Below are positions 24,896-34,178 of a stretch of 35,153 nucleotides of DNA, piece by piece. The notes under the pieces are model-generated. The model was not told the origin of the DNA and did not search any database. It was given only the letters and a program-made list of their open reading frames with translations. Source of the stretch: Spirochaetota bacterium (GTDB taxonomy: Bacteria; Spirochaetota; Spirochaetia; B11-G9). The DNA lies in assembly GCA_024280415.1 (NCBI GenBank), contig JAJRQE010000060.1:1-35153 (forward strand), given 5' to 3'. Each line of letters begins with the position of its first letter. The stretch's first letter is position 1. Position numbers and translations under genes: made by a program.

Positions 24896-26077
24896 CTATA
24901 ACTCTGCCATTTGCTCCTTAAGCTTAAGGGCAGCCAGAGCATATCCCCCGTCTGCAGAATCCACAAAGTGAACTTCTTCGCCGGTACCCCTATGGATAAG
25001 GCAGGTAAGAATAGCACGGTCAGAAACATGAAGTCCAAAATTTAAAAAACCCTTATCATATAATTTACTGAGATAGGCTTCAAATTTTTCTCTCTGATAC
25101 TTTGAGCAGGACACAACCATTTTAAGTGATCCGTCAAATTTACGAAAATCTGAATTTATAATATTATCCTGCTTTATATCTTTAAAATTCTTTTTATTTA
25201 TTTTAAGAGGGATATGAAAAAATATGATCATTTTAACAAAAATTATTTCAAAATTAATTCTCATTTTATTAAAAGAGTATAAAAATCCGGATGTTTGTTT
25301 TGAAAATATTCTGGCCTCTCTAAAAGACTGAGCAACAGAAGAAGACTGATTATCCATGGTAAGAGGATGATAGTCAGATTCATGACCAAAATTTTCATCG
25401 ATCGACTTTAGAATATTATTAAATATTTTTGATTTTTCTCTGCTAAACTCTTCCCTTACCTTAATTATAAAGGAAATAGTCTCTCCCCTTGCACTTGGAA
25501 TATCCTTCCATCTGCAGGTAAACCCGGTAAAATCAGCTTTATTCTTTGCAGGAAGATCCTTTCTCAGTCTAAAGGGATTATAAGTTTTGTCATCTTTTAT
25601 CAGTTTTTCAGCTATATCAATACCCCTACCTGTAATTATAGCCTGAATATATCTGTCGGAAACTCTCAATTTCGCAATAAAAAGCTTGTACCCCTTCCGG
25701 TATATTGTGGAGACAGGAACAACCCCTAACCGTAGTTTCAGATCAAATAGATTATGAACAAGCTTCCTTGTATCTACCAAAACATCCTCTACATCTGCCA
25801 GAATATCTCCGGGAATCAGAAAGGTCATCCCGTCTCCCCCAAAAACAAAAGGGAAATTCATATCCTTTTTAATATTGGATATTGCCATGGCAACAAGGCT
25901 TCCTGCTGTATTTACATCTTTATACTTACCATTGGCAATAGCAGAGGTTGAGTTAATTATATCTGTGATAATAATGTACCAGTCCGGAGGAGGTTTATAG
26001 TAGTAATCGTAATTAAAAAGAGACTTAAAGTCCGGAATAAAAGGAATATCATCGTAGGAATAAATTTCTTCGTTCAT
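24896..26077 (-). CDS. DUF3095-like protein with nucleotide-cyclase-like fold
   Basis: 'PPPDWYIIITDIINSTSAIANGKYKDVNTAGS' and 'FPFVFGGDGMTFLIP'; recalled DUF3095 family pattern, keeps two Asp positions resembling the class III cyclase metal ligands. Confidence 0.75.
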   Translation of the reverse strand: MNEEIYSYDDIPFIPDFKSLFNYDYYYKPPPDWYIIITDIINSTSAIANGKYKDVNTAGSLVAMAISNIKKDMNFPFVFGGDGMTFLIPGDILADVEDVLVDTRKLVHNLFDLKLRLGVVPVSTIYRKGYKLFIAKLRVSDRYIQAIITGRGIDIAEKLIKDDKTYNPFRLRKDLPAKNKADFTGFTCRWKDIPSARGETISFIIKVREEFSREKSKIFNNILKSIDENFGHESDYHPLTMDNQSSSVAQSFREARIFSKQTSGFLYSFNKMRINFEIIFVKMIIFFHIPLKINKKNFKDIKQDNIINSDFRKFDGSLKMVVSCSKYQREKFEAYLSKLYDKGFLNFGLHVSDRAILTCLIHRGTGEEVHFVDSADGGYALAALKLKEQMAEL

Positions 26078-26079
26078 AT

Positions 26080-27390
26080 TTATACTATCGGTACAATAAT
26101 TGTAAATGTAGTTTCTTTTTTTAATTCAGAAACTGCAGAGATCTCCCATCCATGAGATTTTATTACTGCTGCAACATTTGCAAGCCCCAGTCCGAAACCT
26201 TCATCATTACGCCCCTTTAAACCCCGGTAGAATGGTTCAAAGATTCGGAAAAGATCGTCCCTTTCTATTCCCTCTCCCCTGTTCACAACAGAAAGGAGAA
26301 TCCCTTCTCCTTTTCTAACAGCAGTAAACGTGACAACAGAATCCGGGTATGAATATCTGTATGCATTATGAAGAAGATTTTCAAAACTTCTTACTACAAG
26401 CTCACGATCCATAATTACCTTAATATCATAGGGAATATCCAGCTCATACTCAAAAGTATGTTTATAGAGGGATGCTTCAAGTTTAAAGGATTCCAGAAGA
26501 TCCCTTAGAAAAGTTCTGAACATAACGGGTTCAAAAGTTTCCTTCCAGTCTCTGGTCTCCAGCTTTACAAAATGGATCAGCTGGGAAATTCGACTGGAGA
26601 GCAGATTTGTCTTTGACCGGATTATCTCCATATATTTATTAAGAGTCTCCTTATCTTCTGCATAACCCGCAAGAACTGCATCCGCATAACCGCTTATTGA
26701 TGTAAGAGGTGTTTTAAGGTCATGGGAAACACTCATAAAAAACCTTGCCCGTCTGTCGTACTCATCCTTAACTTTACGCCGCATTATATCAAAAGAGCGT
26801 GCAAGGGAAGCAATGGAATCATTTCCTTTGGTTTTTAATTCAAATTCGAAATCACCTTCTGCAACCTTCCTGGTTGCTTCTTCGATTCTTTTGAGAGAAA
26901 TATTTATTGATCTGATGAGAATAAGAGATAGGAGTGTAATTACTGAATAGAGAATAAAGGTAAATATAAAAGGAAGAGGTTTATTCCTGAATATTGAATA
27001 TTTATCAATTAAAGGGCGATTAATTATCAGAACAGATCCGTTACCATTCTTATATGTTACAGTTAATGCTTCCAGTGTAACTTTTGGTATATTACCGTTC
27101 TTATTCCTCGCTATAAAATCTGTAAATATTTCGTTTCTTTTTTGGCTATCTCCATCAAGTATCCGTGCATTCATCTCGGGAGGAAGATCCTTAACAAAGG
27201 TTGCAAACTCATTCGGATCAACCTCATTATCTATAAGTTCATACAGCTGGTAGTATCGGGCAAGTTGTTCATGGGTGGCCTTCAAATTTTCTATACTGCC
27301 AAAAGACAACCATACCGTCAGCATAATCAAAGCATTTGGAATTATAAATGTACCTATAATAAGGAGCAGGAATCGAATTTTAAGATTCAC
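26080..27390 (-). CDS. Sensor histidine kinase (HAMP, HisKA)
   Basis: 'MSVSHDLKTPLTSISGYADAVL' H-box, 'NLLHNAYRYS' N-box, 'GFGLGLANV'; overlaps the upstream response regulator gene by 11 nt. Confidence 0.95.
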   Translation of the reverse strand: MNLKIRFLLLIIGTFIIPNALIMLTVWLSFGSIENLKATHEQLARYYQLYELIDNEVDPNEFATFVKDLPPEMNARILDGDSQKRNEIFTDFIARNKNGNIPKVTLEALTVTYKNGNGSVLIINRPLIDKYSIFRNKPLPFIFTFILYSVITLLSLILIRSINISLKRIEEATRKVAEGDFEFELKTKGNDSIASLARSFDIMRRKVKDEYDRRARFFMSVSHDLKTPLTSISGYADAVLAGYAEDKETLNKYMEIIRSKTNLLSSRISQLIHFVKLETRDWKETFEPVMFRTFLRDLLESFKLEASLYKHTFEYELDIPYDIKVIMDRELVVRSFENLLHNAYRYSYPDSVVTFTAVRKGEGILLSVVNRGEGIERDDLFRIFEPFYRGLKGRNDEGFGLGLANVAAVIKSHGWEISAVSELKKETTFTIIVPIV

Positions 27391-28084
27391 CCTTTAATTT
27401 CCTTTTATCAAAAAGATAACCACGACCGTGAATGGTTAGAATATATTCAGGCAAGGCAGGGGAATTCTCAATTTTTTTCCTTATCCGCTGAATATAAACA
27501 CCCACTGTTGTTATATCCCCATACTCCTGCCCCCAGACAGTCCTGTATATCTCATCGGGAGTAAAAGCTGTACCAGGATTCTGAACAAGAAAGCGAAGAA
27601 CCTCAAACTCCTTAGTAGAAAGAAGTATCCGGTTACTGTTTTTCTCAAGATAGTACCCTTCCGGAGAGAGAGAAAACGGCCCGAATGCTATTGAGTCGGG
27701 GATAAAATTATCACGACCTGACAAAGATCTTCTTAGAATGGCTCTTATTTTTGCAACCAGAACCTTAGGAGAAAAGGGTTTATTTACAAACTCATCCGCT
27801 CCCAGGCCAAGACCAAGAACAATATCCTCATCCCCTTCTCTTGCAGATAAAATCAGAACAGGTATGTCTGACTTCTGCCTCAAATCCTGAAGAAACTCAA
27901 ATCCATCCATTCCGGGTAGGTTTATATCCAGAGTAATAAGATCGTATGAACCTTCAGCCATAGATTCAAATCCGGCCTCTGCACTAACAGCAATATCTGA
28001 GTCAATACCATCCTTTGAAAGGTAGAGCTGAACCAGCTCACCAAGTTCCGGCTCATCCTCTATTATTAATACCCTGGCTTTCAT
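27380..28084 (-). CDS. OmpR-family response regulator
   Basis: Receiver 'VLIIEDEPELGELVQLYL...LITLDINLPGMDG...NKPF' and winged-helix C-terminal domain. Confidence 0.96.
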   Translation of the reverse strand: MKARVLIIEDEPELGELVQLYLSKDGIDSDIAVSAEAGFESMAEGSYDLITLDINLPGMDGFEFLQDLRQKSDIPVLILSAREGDEDIVLGLGLGADEFVNKPFSPKVLVAKIRAILRRSLSGRDNFIPDSIAFGPFSLSPEGYYLEKNSNRILLSTKEFEVLRFLVQNPGTAFTPDEIYRTVWGQEYGDITTVGVYIQRIRKKIENSPALPEYILTIHGRGYLFDKRKLKGES

Positions 28085-28085
28085 T

Positions 28086-29480
28086 CTAGAAACTTGTTCC
28101 CCCTATGGATACTCCAAGACTAACAGAAGCCGTGCTTCCCTGTACAGAATATTCTTCCCCTGGATCTCCAAATATTCTTGGGGCACTCAATGTAATATCT
28201 ATATTATCCATACCGCTCCAGGAGAAGGAAGGTTTAATCATACCTGATAAAGAGGAAAAATTCTCGATAAAAAATAATGACAGTGAAAAGTCACTTCCCC
28301 ACATATCCCGCCAGCTCACACTTCCTGCCCCGTAGTGACGGCCATTTTCAAGGAGGTCAGAAGAGGATATTACTCCTGAACCCAGAAGAGAACCCAGTTC
28401 CTGCAAAGTATAAGGATCATCGTATCCCTCCCCATTGTAGTAGTACTGTCCGGAAAAACTAAAATTATAGTTTGCGAAATCATCACTCCATGAATAACCT
28501 GCACCAATGGTTCCCTTAAAAAATATTTTATCATTATATGAAACTGCAGTAACACCCCCATTATCTATGACAAAGGTTTTATCAGAACCATACGAAAGGT
28601 AACCCTCTCCATATAACGAAACATCTCCAATTGCAGAGCTTATGGTTGCCATTGCATCTGGAGCATGATTGTACTGGTAGTAAGCCCCAAATGCGATCTC
28701 ACTGTTTCCAATTACAAATTCCACCTTTGGAGCAAAAGCAATATCCGAATAACTATCTGCCTCTACTGGAATAATTGTATATAAATAGAAATTATTCAGC
28801 ATAAACGGATAGTTGACTTTTACAGCAACAGGGCCGTCAAGATCTGCATCAGGATCTTCCGGATCTATTCTGCTTAAAGAAAGAAGATCCCCGGGGCTGA
28901 AAAAACGCCCCACTCCCCAGTTAACAGACTGCTTTCCTGCCCGGAAAAACAATTTTTGATTCCAGTTAAAATCGGCAAAAAGTTCTGTAATGGTAATAAT
29001 ATCTTCAAATTTTCTCTCCTCTGTACCTGATGTAGTATAAAAAGGAGAAGTTACAATGGCTTTTCCAAATACTCTCGAATCTGCATCCGGTCTTGCATCC
29101 ATAAACAGAGTTACTCCCAGGTTCAGGGACAAATTGTCACTTATTGAACTTCCTCCTAAATTTTCAGGATCAATACCGGTCCAGGAGGAATTAACATCAA
29201 AATAGAAACTGCCTCCCAGCTCAACACCTGAATTATTTGTAAGGAGAAGGGAACTAAGATCCTCCATATTCTCATCTGCAACATTTTCAACAAGAGATAG
29301 ATCCCCTGAAAGTAAATCAGCCTCATCAGAGCCGAAAAGAGACTCCTCATCTGTTTTCAGCTCTACAATTTTTTCACCAAAGAGGGAATCCTCATCGGTA
29401 ACAATTTCCTGTCCAAAAATTCTGGCTGTTAAAAGTATAACCAGGCTAATTATAAATACTGTCAGTTTTTCATTTTTCAT
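28086..29480 (-). CDS. Predicted outer-membrane beta-barrel/porin-like protein with acidic N-terminal DE(D/E)SLFG repeat
   Basis: ATG at 29480 (MKNEKLTVFIISLVILLTARIFGQ) after GGAG; signal peptide; alternating hydrophobic/aromatic strands and 'FRAGKQSVNWGVGRFFSPGDLLS', as in DUF1302/porin-like proteins. Confidence 0.8.
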   Translation of the reverse strand: MKNEKLTVFIISLVILLTARIFGQEIVTDEDSLFGEKIVELKTDEESLFGSDEADLLSGDLSLVENVADENMEDLSSLLLTNNSGVELGGSFYFDVNSSWTGIDPENLGGSSISDNLSLNLGVTLFMDARPDADSRVFGKAIVTSPFYTTSGTEERKFEDIITITELFADFNWNQKLFFRAGKQSVNWGVGRFFSPGDLLSLSRIDPEDPDADLDGPVAVKVNYPFMLNNFYLYTIIPVEADSYSDIAFAPKVEFVIGNSEIAFGAYYQYNHAPDAMATISSAIGDVSLYGEGYLSYGSDKTFVIDNGGVTAVSYNDKIFFKGTIGAGYSWSDDFANYNFSFSGQYYYNGEGYDDPYTLQELGSLLGSGVISSSDLLENGRHYGAGSVSWRDMWGSDFSLSLFFIENFSSLSGMIKPSFSWSGMDNIDITLSAPRIFGDPGEEYSVQGSTASVSLGVSIGGTSF

Positions 29481-29486
29481 ATTAAC

Positions 29487-29673
29487 TCCTATCGCTTTCG
29501 AGAACTTTCTTTCAGAAAGTCTCTGCCTCTTTGCTCTTTGCAAATAAACATGGATCCCAAGGATGCATGGTCGAGCAACAAACTTGTTTGCGACCAGACC
29601 CGACACTTCGTGTCCGGGGGTGCATGGACGAGCAGTGAGTTTGCGAACGACCAGTCGCCCATGTTATTGCTAT
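29487..29673. repeat. Divergent first unit of the nested-palindrome repeat, with two inserted CGAGCA..CGACCAG modules
   Basis: CTCCTATCGCTTTCGAG...CGCCCATGTTATTGCTAT aligns end to end with the 97-bp units except for two inserts. Confidence 0.9.
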
Positions 29674-29867
29674 CTCCTATCGCTTTCGAGCACTTTCCTC
29701 TGGAAAGTCTCTGCCGCTTTGCAAATAAACATGGGTCCCCGACACTTCGTGTCGCCCATGTTATTGCTATCTCCTATCGCTTTCGAGCACTTTCCTCTGG
29801 AAAGTCTCTGCCGCTTTGCAAATAAACATGGGTCCCCGACACTTCGTGTCGCCCATGTTATTGCTAT
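29674..29867. repeat. Perfect tandem duplication of a 97-bp unit (29674-29770, 29771-29867)
   Basis: Both copies read CTCCTATCGCTTTCGAGCACTTTCCTCTGGAAAGTCTCTGCCGCTTTGCAAATAAACATGGGTCCCCGACACTTCGTGTCGCCCATGTTATTGCTAT. Confidence 0.97.
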
Positions 29868-30619
29868 CGATTTACCCTTTCTACATAGGACTTTGTAAAT
29901 ATTGAATCAGGAAGATCTTTTGTTGAAATATCGGTAACTGTAATCTGAGTCTTTTTCCCCTCTATGAGTTCATCCTTGAAAATCATTTTAGTTGCAAGAT
30001 ATTTACCACCCACATTGGCATATGAAGGAAAGAGAGAAGTACGCATAAGCCTCCCTGTTGCACTAAAATCCTCAGACTTTAGAATAAGATTATTGTTACT
30101 GGTAATCCATATTTTTACAGTCGGATATGTAACCTCAGAGTTTGTCCCCTCCAGATCCATAATATAGACATCATACCGTCCAAGTTTACCCTCTTTCACT
30201 GCCACAACCTTGTAGTCATCTGCAATCGAGGATGAACCAAAGTCAGAATTCTTTGCATCTGTTCCGCCGAAACTATCTTTCATAGAGGTATGGTTAAATT
30301 TTCTACTCTGAGGATCATAAAACCACAAATTCTCTCCAATATTAAGATAGCCCTGCCCCTTCTCCGATGCAGGTTCAATAAACAGCATTAGAAACATATC
30401 AGAATCATCCCTTCGAAACTGCTGAACCTTTTTCTTCTCAACTCCTGTATCCTGATCCTCCGAAATCATTGTCATAACTGCCGAAAAATCGATACCGCTG
30501 AAATTTCGGGAAGTATCAACTGTGGCTAAAATTCTATTTGCCTCATCAAGGCTTATTGCACTGAGACCGGATATACCGACCATCAATAAAACCATTAAAC
30601 CTATTATATATTTTTTCAT
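29864..30619 (-). CDS. LolA-like outer-membrane lipoprotein-sorting protein
   Basis: Signal peptide, 'SGIDFSAVMTMISEDQDTGVEKKKVQQFRRDDSDMFLMLFIEPASEKGQGYLNIGENLWFYDPQSRKFNHTSMKDSFGGTDAKNSDFG'. Confidence 0.88.
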   Translation of the reverse strand: MKKYIIGLMVLLMVGISGLSAISLDEANRILATVDTSRNFSGIDFSAVMTMISEDQDTGVEKKKVQQFRRDDSDMFLMLFIEPASEKGQGYLNIGENLWFYDPQSRKFNHTSMKDSFGGTDAKNSDFGSSSIADDYKVVAVKEGKLGRYDVYIMDLEGTNSEVTYPTVKIWITSNNNLILKSEDFSATGRLMRTSLFPSYANVGGKYLATKMIFKDELIEGKKTQITVTDISTKDLPDSIFTKSYVERVNR

Positions 30620-30631
30620 TTTTCTCTCCTA

Positions 30632-31969
30632 TTAATATTGTGCTCTCAAGGCATCCACCACTTTCATCCTGGCAGCCTTTCTGGCGGGCATATAAACTGC
30701 AGCAAGTGTCATTATAGAAAGCAGAATAACAACTTTCAAAATACCCGAAGGGGATGTTATAAACTGAAGTTTCCCGTTATTAAGAAACAGTCCAAGAGGT
30801 GAATCAGAAGTAAACCTGATAAGTCCTGCAGCTATTGTTGTAACCCCAGATAGAATAATTCCCCCAAAAGCACCAAAAAGAGAAAGAAAAAGAGCTTCCA
30901 GCAAAAATATACTCCTTACACTTCCCCGGTGCATTCCAATTGCTCTCATTGTACCAATCTCTTTTGTCCTCTCAATTAAAACCATTCTGAAAGTATTAAT
31001 TAAACCTACCATTGTAATGAGCATAAGGATTATAAAAAGGGAAAGAGAAACAATATTCAGGATATTAACAAGCTGAAGAACGGGTTCCATTATATCGTTG
31101 AGAGTTGTAATACTGAATTTCGTCCCTTCCCATGGTTCTTCCACCGCACCAGGAGCAAATCCCCCAAACATAAAACCGTGTCTCTGATCCTCTTTCTCAT
31201 CATCAGAATCATCTTTTCCCAGATCTACAGGTGATGTTTTTTTAAGTTCAGCTGCCAGACGCTCCGAGGCAATATCCATATCTTCAATATTATTCAGATG
31301 TAAATTTAGATACTGATATTCATTGGGACCAAGACCAATAAGACCGTTGAGGTATCCCATCTCTGTATAAGCCATACTTATAAATGAGAAATTGTCCTGA
31401 TCTTTTGTAATTGCCGCAACAGTAAATTCTCCCACATTCTTCTGTCCCGTTACCGTATCCATCCTGACAAGTACAGTCTCACCAGCCATTACACCTATTT
31501 TATCTGCTATTAATTCAGGAATAATCAGCATCCCGGGATTATCAATATTTTCCAAAGATCCACCCGTAACTGTCAAAGTCTTAAGAAGCATCTCCTCTTT
31601 ATTCCAGTCAACACCGGATATCTGAAGAGTTGTACTCTTTGATCCAAAGATAATCTCCCCCATACCCACCTGCGATCTAATATGATACTCTTCAACAAGA
31701 TCATCGATAGTTGATATTGCTTTACCAAGATCAGCTGTATCCCCTATTACCTGAACAACTCTCCCGCTATCCAGAGTTTCAGTTCCAAGTATATAGATGT
31801 GTCCGCCCATAATCGAAGTAAAATTTGTCTTAAGGGTTTCTGTCATTCCTGAAGTGAAACTTCCTATGGTAATTATTATAAATACTCCGAATGCTATTGC
31901 CCCACCCAGAAGAAAACTACGCTTTTTCTGGCGTGTTATATTTCTTATTGCTATTTTTGATATATTCAT
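30632..31969 (-). CDS. ABC transporter permease, FtsX/MacB (LolC/E-like) family
   Basis: N-terminal TM, MacB-like periplasmic domain, 'RTKEIGTMRAIGMHRGSVRSIFLLEALFLSLFGA' FtsX motif. Confidence 0.93.
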   Translation of the reverse strand: MNISKIAIRNITRQKKRSFLLGGAIAFGVFIIITIGSFTSGMTETLKTNFTSIMGGHIYILGTETLDSGRVVQVIGDTADLGKAISTIDDLVEEYHIRSQVGMGEIIFGSKSTTLQISGVDWNKEEMLLKTLTVTGGSLENIDNPGMLIIPELIADKIGVMAGETVLVRMDTVTGQKNVGEFTVAAITKDQDNFSFISMAYTEMGYLNGLIGLGPNEYQYLNLHLNNIEDMDIASERLAAELKKTSPVDLGKDDSDDEKEDQRHGFMFGGFAPGAVEEPWEGTKFSITTLNDIMEPVLQLVNILNIVSLSLFIILMLITMVGLINTFRMVLIERTKEIGTMRAIGMHRGSVRSIFLLEALFLSLFGAFGGIILSGVTTIAAGLIRFTSDSPLGLFLNNGKLQFITSPSGILKVVILLSIMTLAAVYMPARKAARMKVVDALRAQY

Positions 31970-31974
31970 TTCTA

Positions 31975-33486
31975 TTAATTCTCCCCCATGGCTTTAACCG
32001 GGCTTATCTTTAAGGCAATGGCAACAGGATAGAGACTTGCAGCTACTCCTACAAATGCCACTGTAACAAGAGATAACACTACTGCCTTTACAGATATAAC
32101 AGGATAAAGAACAGGGCCACCAAGTATTACCTGAAAAAATGTATTTGGAGCTTCATAACCAATTGATCCTATAATTTTTGTAATTATCATACCTGCAGCT
32201 GCCCCTATAATTCCAAAAATAACTGAAATCATAATTGTCTCCAGTGTTATCATACTCCGTATAAATGCTTTCTCCGCACCAATAGCTCTCATTGTCCCAA
32301 TTTCCCCTATCCTTTCATTTACAGAAATTACCAGGGTATTCATAATTATTATTACCGCCACAACTGCTACAATCAAAACAAGGAAATTAAAAACAACTGC
32401 AAGGGTATTGGACATTCTGGCTATTACTCCGGCACCAGCCAGCCAACCTGAAGCCTTTGCATCAATACCATTTTCATTAAACCAGTCATTAAGATTCCTG
32501 ATGAACTTTTTTTCATTCACACTGTCATCAAGCTTAACTACCAGATAATGCCATGCATCAGGATCAGTCTGACTGTATTTTCCCCGTTCAGATGTATCTC
32601 CCAAAATGTTTAGATAATCCGAATCATTATACTGGGAAATACCTGTTTCTTCAGAAACAGAAATATCTGCAAGAAGGTCACCTTCAAACAGTCCTGTGTC
32701 ACCGGAACCAAATAGTGAATCCTCATCTACATCTCCAAGAAGAGCTTCTTCATTTGCACTAAGATTTGCCGCAACTTCAGTATATGCTAGCATTCCATTT
32801 ATTATACGAATATTATCCAGATCAATAAACGAGATCATCTCAAGCTGAGGAGATTCATTTACAAACTTAAAAGTTCCACGGACAGTTACCTCCCGGATCT
32901 TCGTTCCGGTTATACTATTAATTCCTGTAAGAAGAACAGAGTCTCCCGGTTTTACCGTTTCTCCACTCGAATCCTTTATCATCCTTACAGCTGCCACAGA
33001 CAGAACGACCCCCTCTTCCCCTGTTTTAAGAAAAGTACCGGAAGTAAGTTCCAGATTATCCCTGAAAGTTTCCTGATACATTCCCGGGTCAACACCGAAA
33101 AGCATAACAAACCCTGTACCATCTTCACCATGTTTCATTAGTGCAGCACCCCCGATCTGAGGATTAACTGCAATAACTTCATCTAATGAATCGAGATATG
33201 AGATAATCTTCCTGGAGGATGGAATAATGGGAGTTAGCTCTTCTTTATTTGTCATAGAACCATCCATAAATAAAGAAACATTTTCCATGGATTTTGCGGC
33301 AATTACCAGATCTCCTGTGAAATTCTGAATATAGGTTTTCTCAATTCCACTTGCAGCTGTTTCCATAAATGAATTTCCAACAACAAGAATCATAATTGCC
33401 AAGGCCATGAGGGTACCAATTATCAATGTCTTGGTTTTATGCTCTTTAAGGTTCCTGTAGGCAATCTTAAATATTAATCCATTCAT
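31975..33486 (-). CDS. ABC transporter permease, FtsX/MacB (LolC/E-like) family, with acidic DEDSLFG-containing loop
   Basis: 'NERIGEIGTMRAIGAEKAFIRSMITLETIMISVIFGIIGA' FtsX motif; large periplasmic domain. Confidence 0.93.
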   Translation of the reverse strand: MNGLIFKIAYRNLKEHKTKTLIIGTLMALAIMILVVGNSFMETAASGIEKTYIQNFTGDLVIAAKSMENVSLFMDGSMTNKEELTPIIPSSRKIISYLDSLDEVIAVNPQIGGAALMKHGEDGTGFVMLFGVDPGMYQETFRDNLELTSGTFLKTGEEGVVLSVAAVRMIKDSSGETVKPGDSVLLTGINSITGTKIREVTVRGTFKFVNESPQLEMISFIDLDNIRIINGMLAYTEVAANLSANEEALLGDVDEDSLFGSGDTGLFEGDLLADISVSEETGISQYNDSDYLNILGDTSERGKYSQTDPDAWHYLVVKLDDSVNEKKFIRNLNDWFNENGIDAKASGWLAGAGVIARMSNTLAVVFNFLVLIVAVVAVIIIMNTLVISVNERIGEIGTMRAIGAEKAFIRSMITLETIMISVIFGIIGAAAGMIITKIIGSIGYEAPNTFFQVILGGPVLYPVISVKAVVLSLVTVAFVGVAASLYPVAIALKISPVKAMGEN

Positions 33487-33488
33487 GC

Positions 33489-34178
33489 CTAGCTCCGCTT
33501 ATTCTCAATAATTTTTCCATCCTTGAGCTGGATCACATGATCTGCAATTTCAACAATTGACTGATCATGGGTGGAAAAAATAAAGGTAGTTCCATATTCC
33601 TTATTCATTTTCTTCATCAGCTGAATTATACTCGCACCTGTTTCAGAATCCAGGTTTGCAGTAGGTTCATCTGCCAGTACAATCTGCGGTTTTGTAACAA
33701 GGGCTCTGGCAATTGCCACTCGCTGTCTCTGACCACCGGAGAGCTCATTTGGCTTATGGGTCTTCCAGTCACCAAGACCGACTTCATCCATTAACCCGAA
33801 AATCCAGGTTTCCCTTTCTAATCGGGGCAGAGGGTTCTTTCCCAAAAGCATTGGAAACTCAATATTCTCAAATACATTTAAAACCGGAATAAGATTAAAA
33901 TTCTGGAATATAAATCCTAAAACTTCGTGCCGAAGATTTGTAATCTCTTTATCCTTCAGATCAATGGTGTTTGTCTCATTTATGGTGACGATCCCCTCTG
34001 TAGGTGTATCAATACATCCAATCATATTTAGAATTGTAGATTTTCCCGAACCCGAGGGTCCTGCAATAGAGATAAAATCCCCTGATTCAATATCAAAAGA
34101 TACCCCCTTAACTGCGTGAACCTCTGTTTTACCCAGGGGATATTTTTTATGGACATCTTTTAATGAAATTACCGTCAT
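33489..34178 (-). CDS. ABC transporter ATP-binding protein, MacB/LolD family
   Basis: '[23 protein letters not shown]', 'ELSGGQRQRVAIARALVTKPQIVLADEPTANLDSETG'. Confidence 0.95.
   Translation of the reverse strand: MTVISLKDVHKKYPLGKTEVHAVKGVSFDIESGDFISIAGPSGSGKSTILNMIGCIDTPTEGIVTINETNTIDLKDKEITNLRHEVLGFIFQNFNLIPVLNVFENIEFPMLLGKNPLPRLERETWIFGLMDEVGLGDWKTHKPNELSGGQRQRVAIARALVTKPQIVLADEPTANLDSETGASIIQLMKKMNKEYGTTFIFSTHDQSIVEIADHVIQLKDGKIIENKRS

Follow-up and report, generated by a model that had tools for sequence, protein, structure and literature searches.

Organization of the locus

The stretch of DNA analysed here (35,153 nucleotides, hereafter the window) carries on its minus strand an operon encoding, in the order of transcription, a LolD-like ATPase, permease A, permease B, a LolA-like carrier and a DUF1302-like outer-membrane barrel. 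The ATPase of the transporter lies at 33489..34178. Permease A (P0007, 31975..33486), three genes upstream of the barrel, is a LolC/LolE/LolF/MacB-like member of the FtsX family and is similar to LolE/LolC structures both by sequence profile and by fold. Permease B (30632..31969) has FtsX and MacB_PCD domains, while the periplasmic carrier (29864..30619) matches PF17131 (E 1e-45) and PDB entry 3buu (E 4e-28). The barrel gene (28086..29480) encodes 464 aa from its ATG and matches PF06980 (E 1e-5). Transporter, LolA-like gene and DUF1302-like barrel are thus found together in one operon, which is the arrangement of the MMPL/ABC - LolA_like - DUF1302 systems. Since the matches fall below the NCBIfam equivalog cut-offs, the system is called LolCDE-like and not LolCDE.

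The barrel gene is followed by those of a response regulator, a histidine kinase and a DUF3095 protein, and in this region directly 3' of the barrel (24896-28084) the response regulator and kinase are retained in relatives, with DUF3095 in some. Between the LolA-like and barrel genes (29483-29868) a 97-bp unit is repeated in tandem, with 2.2 perfect copies and one degenerate copy; it has 18 whole or partial matches across the genome, the window copies counted, and some of the others are tandem too. Permeases A and B form a single 969-aa reading frame in one relative (entered as L019, L213 and L218). Permease B also contains, at about residues 262-275, a Met/Phe/Gly-rich loop (RHGFMFGGFAPG; RHGFMFGG in the window) with the counterparts MMGG and SLMGGSFFG in other families, which may serve the carrier as a hydrophobic hook.

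The motif in the barrel tail

The preliminary description of the barrel had pointed to two copies of DE(D/E)SLFG, 15 residues apart, in an acidic and probably disordered stretch after the signal peptide. Both copies are indeed there, DEDSLFG at residues 29-35 (29376..29396, minus strand) and DEESLFG at residues 44-50 (29331..29351, minus strand), within an acidic tail of the mature protein (residues 24-70, 29271..29411, minus strand) which also includes a secondary element, LVENVADE. The tail is predicted to be disordered, being modelled as coil of very low pLDDT ahead of a first strand at residue 86; the barrel model is of low confidence (mean pLDDT 51) and was used for disorder and rough topology only. 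The codons of the two copies differ (GAT GAG GAT TCC CTC TTT GGT and GAT GAG GAG TCT CTT TTC GGC), which bears out the view that they do not come from a fresh duplication of DNA.

In the alignment of relatives only the second copy is conserved, with L48 and F49 invariant among the barrels, and the first is an extra copy missing from several of them. The number of copies is one in L211 and L006 (DEDNLFG in the latter), two in L004 and L005 and three in L010, so the duplication is a variable, lineage-specific detail.

A third copy in permease A

The same heptapeptide, DEDSLFG, occurs at residues 254-260 of permease A (32707..32727, minus strand), in a region reading LGDVDEDSLFGSGDTGLFEGDLL; permease B is devoid of it. 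This copy falls in an insert of the periplasmic domain (residues 226-314, 32545..32811, minus strand) without counterpart in LolC, where the very low model confidence (pLDDT mostly <35) is consistent with disorder. Here too the structure model, with a mean pLDDT of 54, served for disorder and rough topology only. Judged by the layout of the FtsX family, the insert is periplasmic.

A codon-complete DNA pattern for [DE][DE][DE]xLFG gave five matches in the 3.9-Mb genome (three for the reversed-pattern control): the two barrel copies, the permease A copy and two which are in frame in no ORF of at least 80 aa. It follows from this search that all the in-frame occurrences lie in one operon, in two non-homologous proteins; the motif is rare genome-wide, and its presence here is more than chance. 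The codons in permease A and in the barrel are unrelated and the two genes have no DNA words in common longer than 15 bases, which rules out DNA copying between them; the similarity is kept up at the protein level.

Conservation in the ABC systems

Both genes, permease and barrel, are present in 8 of 8 genomes of the window's family, and the motif is found in the orthologous barrels of relatives as well. The family permeases have one copy each, some with a second LFG. D256, L258 and F259 of the permease and L48 and F49 of the barrel are invariant amid otherwise variable segments, even in L219 and L220, whose identity to the window has dropped to 40-42% (permease) and 33-36% (barrel). These last two are MAG contigs labelled Bacillota/Clostridiales that contain the same outer-membrane-directed operon; they may be mislabelled taxonomically, or they may come from a diderm host.

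Relatives of permease A were detected by profile search in 148 of the 299 Spirochaetota genomes sampled. Among the ABC systems, an acidic-[LMI]F core is found in all 18 cognate barrels and all 30 permease inserts, D-E-D-(S/D)-L-F-G being the commonest residues in both sets, and a downstream hydrophobic-acidic element (IVENV, LVEEV, IVEAV) is common to many of them. Moreover, the variants tend to match within pairs: SIFEGD with DIFESGD (L266), EDDMFGQDDMI with EDELFGDDMI (L260), SPESLFSEDDIVE with SFEDLFEQEEIVE (L275), and EDELF on both proteins (L270). Paralogous operons of the same genomes have variants of their own, NLDSLFGIE in the permease and DIDSLFEES in the barrel of L207, FDSLFSFN and IDDLFNQP in those of L208.

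The profile of the barrel tails aligned to that of the permease inserts with an E value of 1.9e-4 (hhalign, score 25.3), a score reached by none of 200 column shuffles, whose maximum was 14.3. Over 18 ABC systems, own pairs were more similar than mismatched ones (permutation p 0.0007).

MMPL/RND systems

PF17131 is present in 215 of the 299 genomes, and in many operons the ABC transporter is replaced by an MMPL/RND protein. The LolA-like gene adjoins that of the barrel or the transporter in the motif-type operons, and in L140 a 1031-aa ORF matching both MMPL and LolA-like profiles represents a natural fusion of transporter and carrier. Long MMPLs (about 870-1040 aa) have an acidic-aromatic insert in their second periplasmic region and their barrels a matching tail, as in the pairs DSFFDDED and DSFFDDSN, SDGWDDWGSDFG and DFDDWGSFSDD, and FDDGFGDDFGEE repeats and DDFGDDSFGDDFG. 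The window's genome has a second system, C177, whose MMPL reads SIFGTSENDE and whose barrel reads DIFGESELDE. In the 2.8-Mb genome G026, [DE]SFFDD is encoded in the MMPL insert and its barrel only, a third DNA match encoding ECFFDD. In a set of 17 genera, composed mostly of MMPL systems and some ABC ones, own pairs again exceeded mismatched pairs (genus-level permutation p <0.001).

The insert is missing from the short MMPLs (about 740-830 aa), whose barrels mostly open almost directly with strands; such systems evidently function without the tag. This bears on the suggestion that the barrel peptide is a tag for sorting or assembly, read by BAM or a periplasmic chaperone. Its position directly after the signal peptide would suit that role, but the peptide is missing from the barrels of short-MMPL systems and is also present on an inner-membrane permease, the latter being the reason why a barrel sorting tag is left unsupported; we regard it as improbable in the extreme.

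The FG-rich low-complexity repeats among many of the variants (FGFG, SLFG) suggest another possibility, namely that aromatic stickers in acidic linkers cohere with each other, FG-like, and bridge transporter and barrel in the absence of any receptor. Against such cohesion stand the strong negative charge of both partners and, in the ABC systems, the single conserved LF core in fixed register, suggestive of a pocket ligand, which make it very unlikely.

Limits of the pairing evidence

Several observations qualify the pairing. Own pairs fall below mismatched pairs in the paralogues L205 and L208, and the excess of own-pair similarity was not seen for L089 and L098 in the mixed, mostly MMPL permutation set. 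A transporter match was not found for two other types of barrel tail, the LPSGLDD repeats of L101/L190 and the DYGALFD of L135/L136/L184. Insert and tail are associated in presence and absence (Fisher p 1e-9), but this association was not taken as independent proof: both follow the ABC clade and a single large clade of the LolA tree, on which a test of independent pairs was not significant. Since the tail-and-insert MMPL systems are roughly one clade and the ABC group of the window is separate, presence and absence amount to few independent events; one lineage within the positive LolA clade, L080, is without both tail and insert.

Shuffling of tails against whole transporters gave strong results for some systems only, on account of low complexity, and many shuffled MMPL tails scored nearly as well as the real ones. 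This, together with the acidic, low-complexity character of both tail and insert, is what could be expected if they were generic acidic disordered linkers, alike through genome composition only. The rarity of the motif genome-wide, the invariant LF, the 0/200 column shuffles and the cognate permutation tests speak against such an origin, which is largely refuted for the ABC systems and appears highly improbable overall.

A simple match of charge was likewise rejected, the LolA-like proteins of motif-bearing systems being no more basic than others. In the alignment of these proteins, near-fixed differences between the long- and short-MMPL systems occur at window residues 90 (R vs G/S) and 248 (T vs R/K); the ABC-linked protein of the window has G at 90 and R at 248.

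Comparison with known systems

The TonB box, a short and flexible peptide, stands at the N-terminus of mature outer-membrane barrels and docks a periplasmic partner there. The position of the window motif on the barrel is similar, but its sequence is different, neither plug nor TonB is involved, and a twin is located on an inner-membrane transporter. The motif was rejected as a TonB box, as PF06980 is the only domain found in the barrel and no plug domain was seen. Eukaryotic lipid-transfer proteins dock, in lipid transfer, by the FFAT motif, in which phenylalanines are set in a disordered acidic tract, and we take the DSFFDDE variant to resemble it. FFAT is read by a VAP/MSP-domain receptor, whereas no such receptor is known for systems of the window type, and the likeness is an analogy only.

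The window system and LolCDE-LolA are alike in having a LolD-like ATPase, LolC/E-like permeases and a LolA-fold carrier. They differ in that LolC recruits LolA through a structured periplasmic hairpin (PMC10865981), whereas the motif of the window belongs to an extra disordered insert that LolC lacks. When permease A was aligned with an E. coli LolC sequence entered by hand, the LolC Hook hairpin (167-179) corresponded to about residues 186-196 of the permease and the insert had only an alignment gap opposite it, close to LolC residue 205; the insert is thus placed outside the Hook region, and its identification with the Hook was rejected. Furthermore, LolCDE-LolA has LolB, and the acceptor position in this operon is occupied by a DUF1302-like barrel instead.

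Systems combining an RND/MMPL transporter, a protein of the LolA superfamily (DUF1329 or LolA_like) and a DUF1302 protein are known in Pseudomonas putida (PP_0765/PP_0766/PP_2018/PP_2019) and Castellaniella (AmeABCD). They have the layout of the window system: inner-membrane transporter, LolA-fold periplasmic protein and DUF1302 barrel. In the available parts of their descriptions no matched tag is mentioned, whereas here it is present on transporter and barrel; moreover, many systems here are of ABC type. Among spirochetes, the Borrelia BBJ23-29 cluster includes an ABC transporter, a LolA-like protein and an outer-membrane barrel, the latter being of Omp85 type and, in the available part of the report (PMC13078400), described with no mention of a twin motif, while the barrel of the window is DUF1302-like and has one.

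A proposed docking-peptide model

The preliminary description had proposed a docking or sorting tag. The docking half is well supported by the conservation, the twin motif on the permease and the cognate pairing across many genera; the sorting half is not supported. Both observations that the preliminary description would have counted against the tag came out the other way, since the motif is rare in the genome, with each in-frame occurrence inside this operon, and orthologous barrels do have it. We propose that the motif is a short linear docking peptide shared by two proteins of one system: the transporter in the inner membrane has it within its disordered periplasmic insert, the barrel in the outer membrane within its disordered N-terminal tail. 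A shared receptor is postulated because the peptide is kept in disordered periplasmic segments of two unrelated proteins of opposite membranes, and because it varies with the partner.

The most likely candidate to bind it is the LolA-like carrier, whose gene lies between the other two, since these operons encode no other soluble periplasmic protein along with both and the carrier must visit both ends. Two precedents led to the same proposal: the Lol permease, which recruits LolA with one of its periplasmic segments (PMC10865981), and the contacts predicted for relatives of the carrier with both transporter and DUF1302 barrel, as AlphaFold co-folding in P. putida put a DUF1329 protein of the LolA superfamily in complex with a DUF1302 barrel and, separately, with an RND transporter (PMC10866462). 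One handle would serve twice, drawing the carrier to the donor transporter and afterwards to the acceptor barrel, so that its cavity would be brought to the mouth of each, and the variants proper to each system (DEDSLFG, SIFE, SIFG, DSFFDD, FGFG-type) would separate systems that run in parallel in the same cell. By relation to Lol and to DUF1302 systems, the cargo is probably a lipid or a lipidated molecule. The twin motif, its conservation and a cognate similarity that DNA copying does not explain are observed, whereas the binding, the LolA-like carrier as reader and the hand-over between the two ends are inferred; we give this model a probability of about 55%.

Twin motifs on both partners would also be compatible with direct docking of the barrel onto the transporter, in which the transporter supplies the receptor, through permease B or the folded periplasmic domain, and the insert occupies it in cis until displaced in trans by the tail of the barrel; the conserved Met/Phe/Gly-rich loop of permease B (RHGFMFGG) would be a candidate site. 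Such competition is nevertheless unlikely, as MMPL-based systems have the twin arrangement without any permease B, and a barrel tail of about 50 residues is short for spanning the periplasm. Alternatively, an unlinked periplasmic adaptor or chaperone could recognise the motif on both proteins, and an extra periplasmic partner, PP_2018, does exist in the related P. putida system (PMC10866462). The operons encode no adaptor, however, and the system-specific variants inside one genome would call for several, so that this reading is quite unlikely.

Implications

A docking peptide read by the carrier would bear on the question of how hydrophobic cargo is handed over from an inner-membrane transporter to a soluble carrier and on to an outer-membrane acceptor in diderms without LolB, such as spirochetes. 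As far as our searches show, the three-part layout of DUF1302, LolA-superfamily and RND proteins was already known and what is new is the matched tag; no earlier report of a matched tag on both membranes was found in the open-licence papers searched. The matched peptide provides a sequence rule for pairing transporters with barrels, and being conserved and removable at both ends, it lets point mutations and swaps probe the hand-over directly. It would also represent, in bacteria, a lipid transfer between two membranes that is guided by a motif. More tentatively, with a little less than an even chance, the trans-envelope lipid systems of spirochetes may in general use a system-specific acidic-aromatic peptide on donor and acceptor, read by a cognate LolA-like shuttle, to insulate parallel routes from each other.
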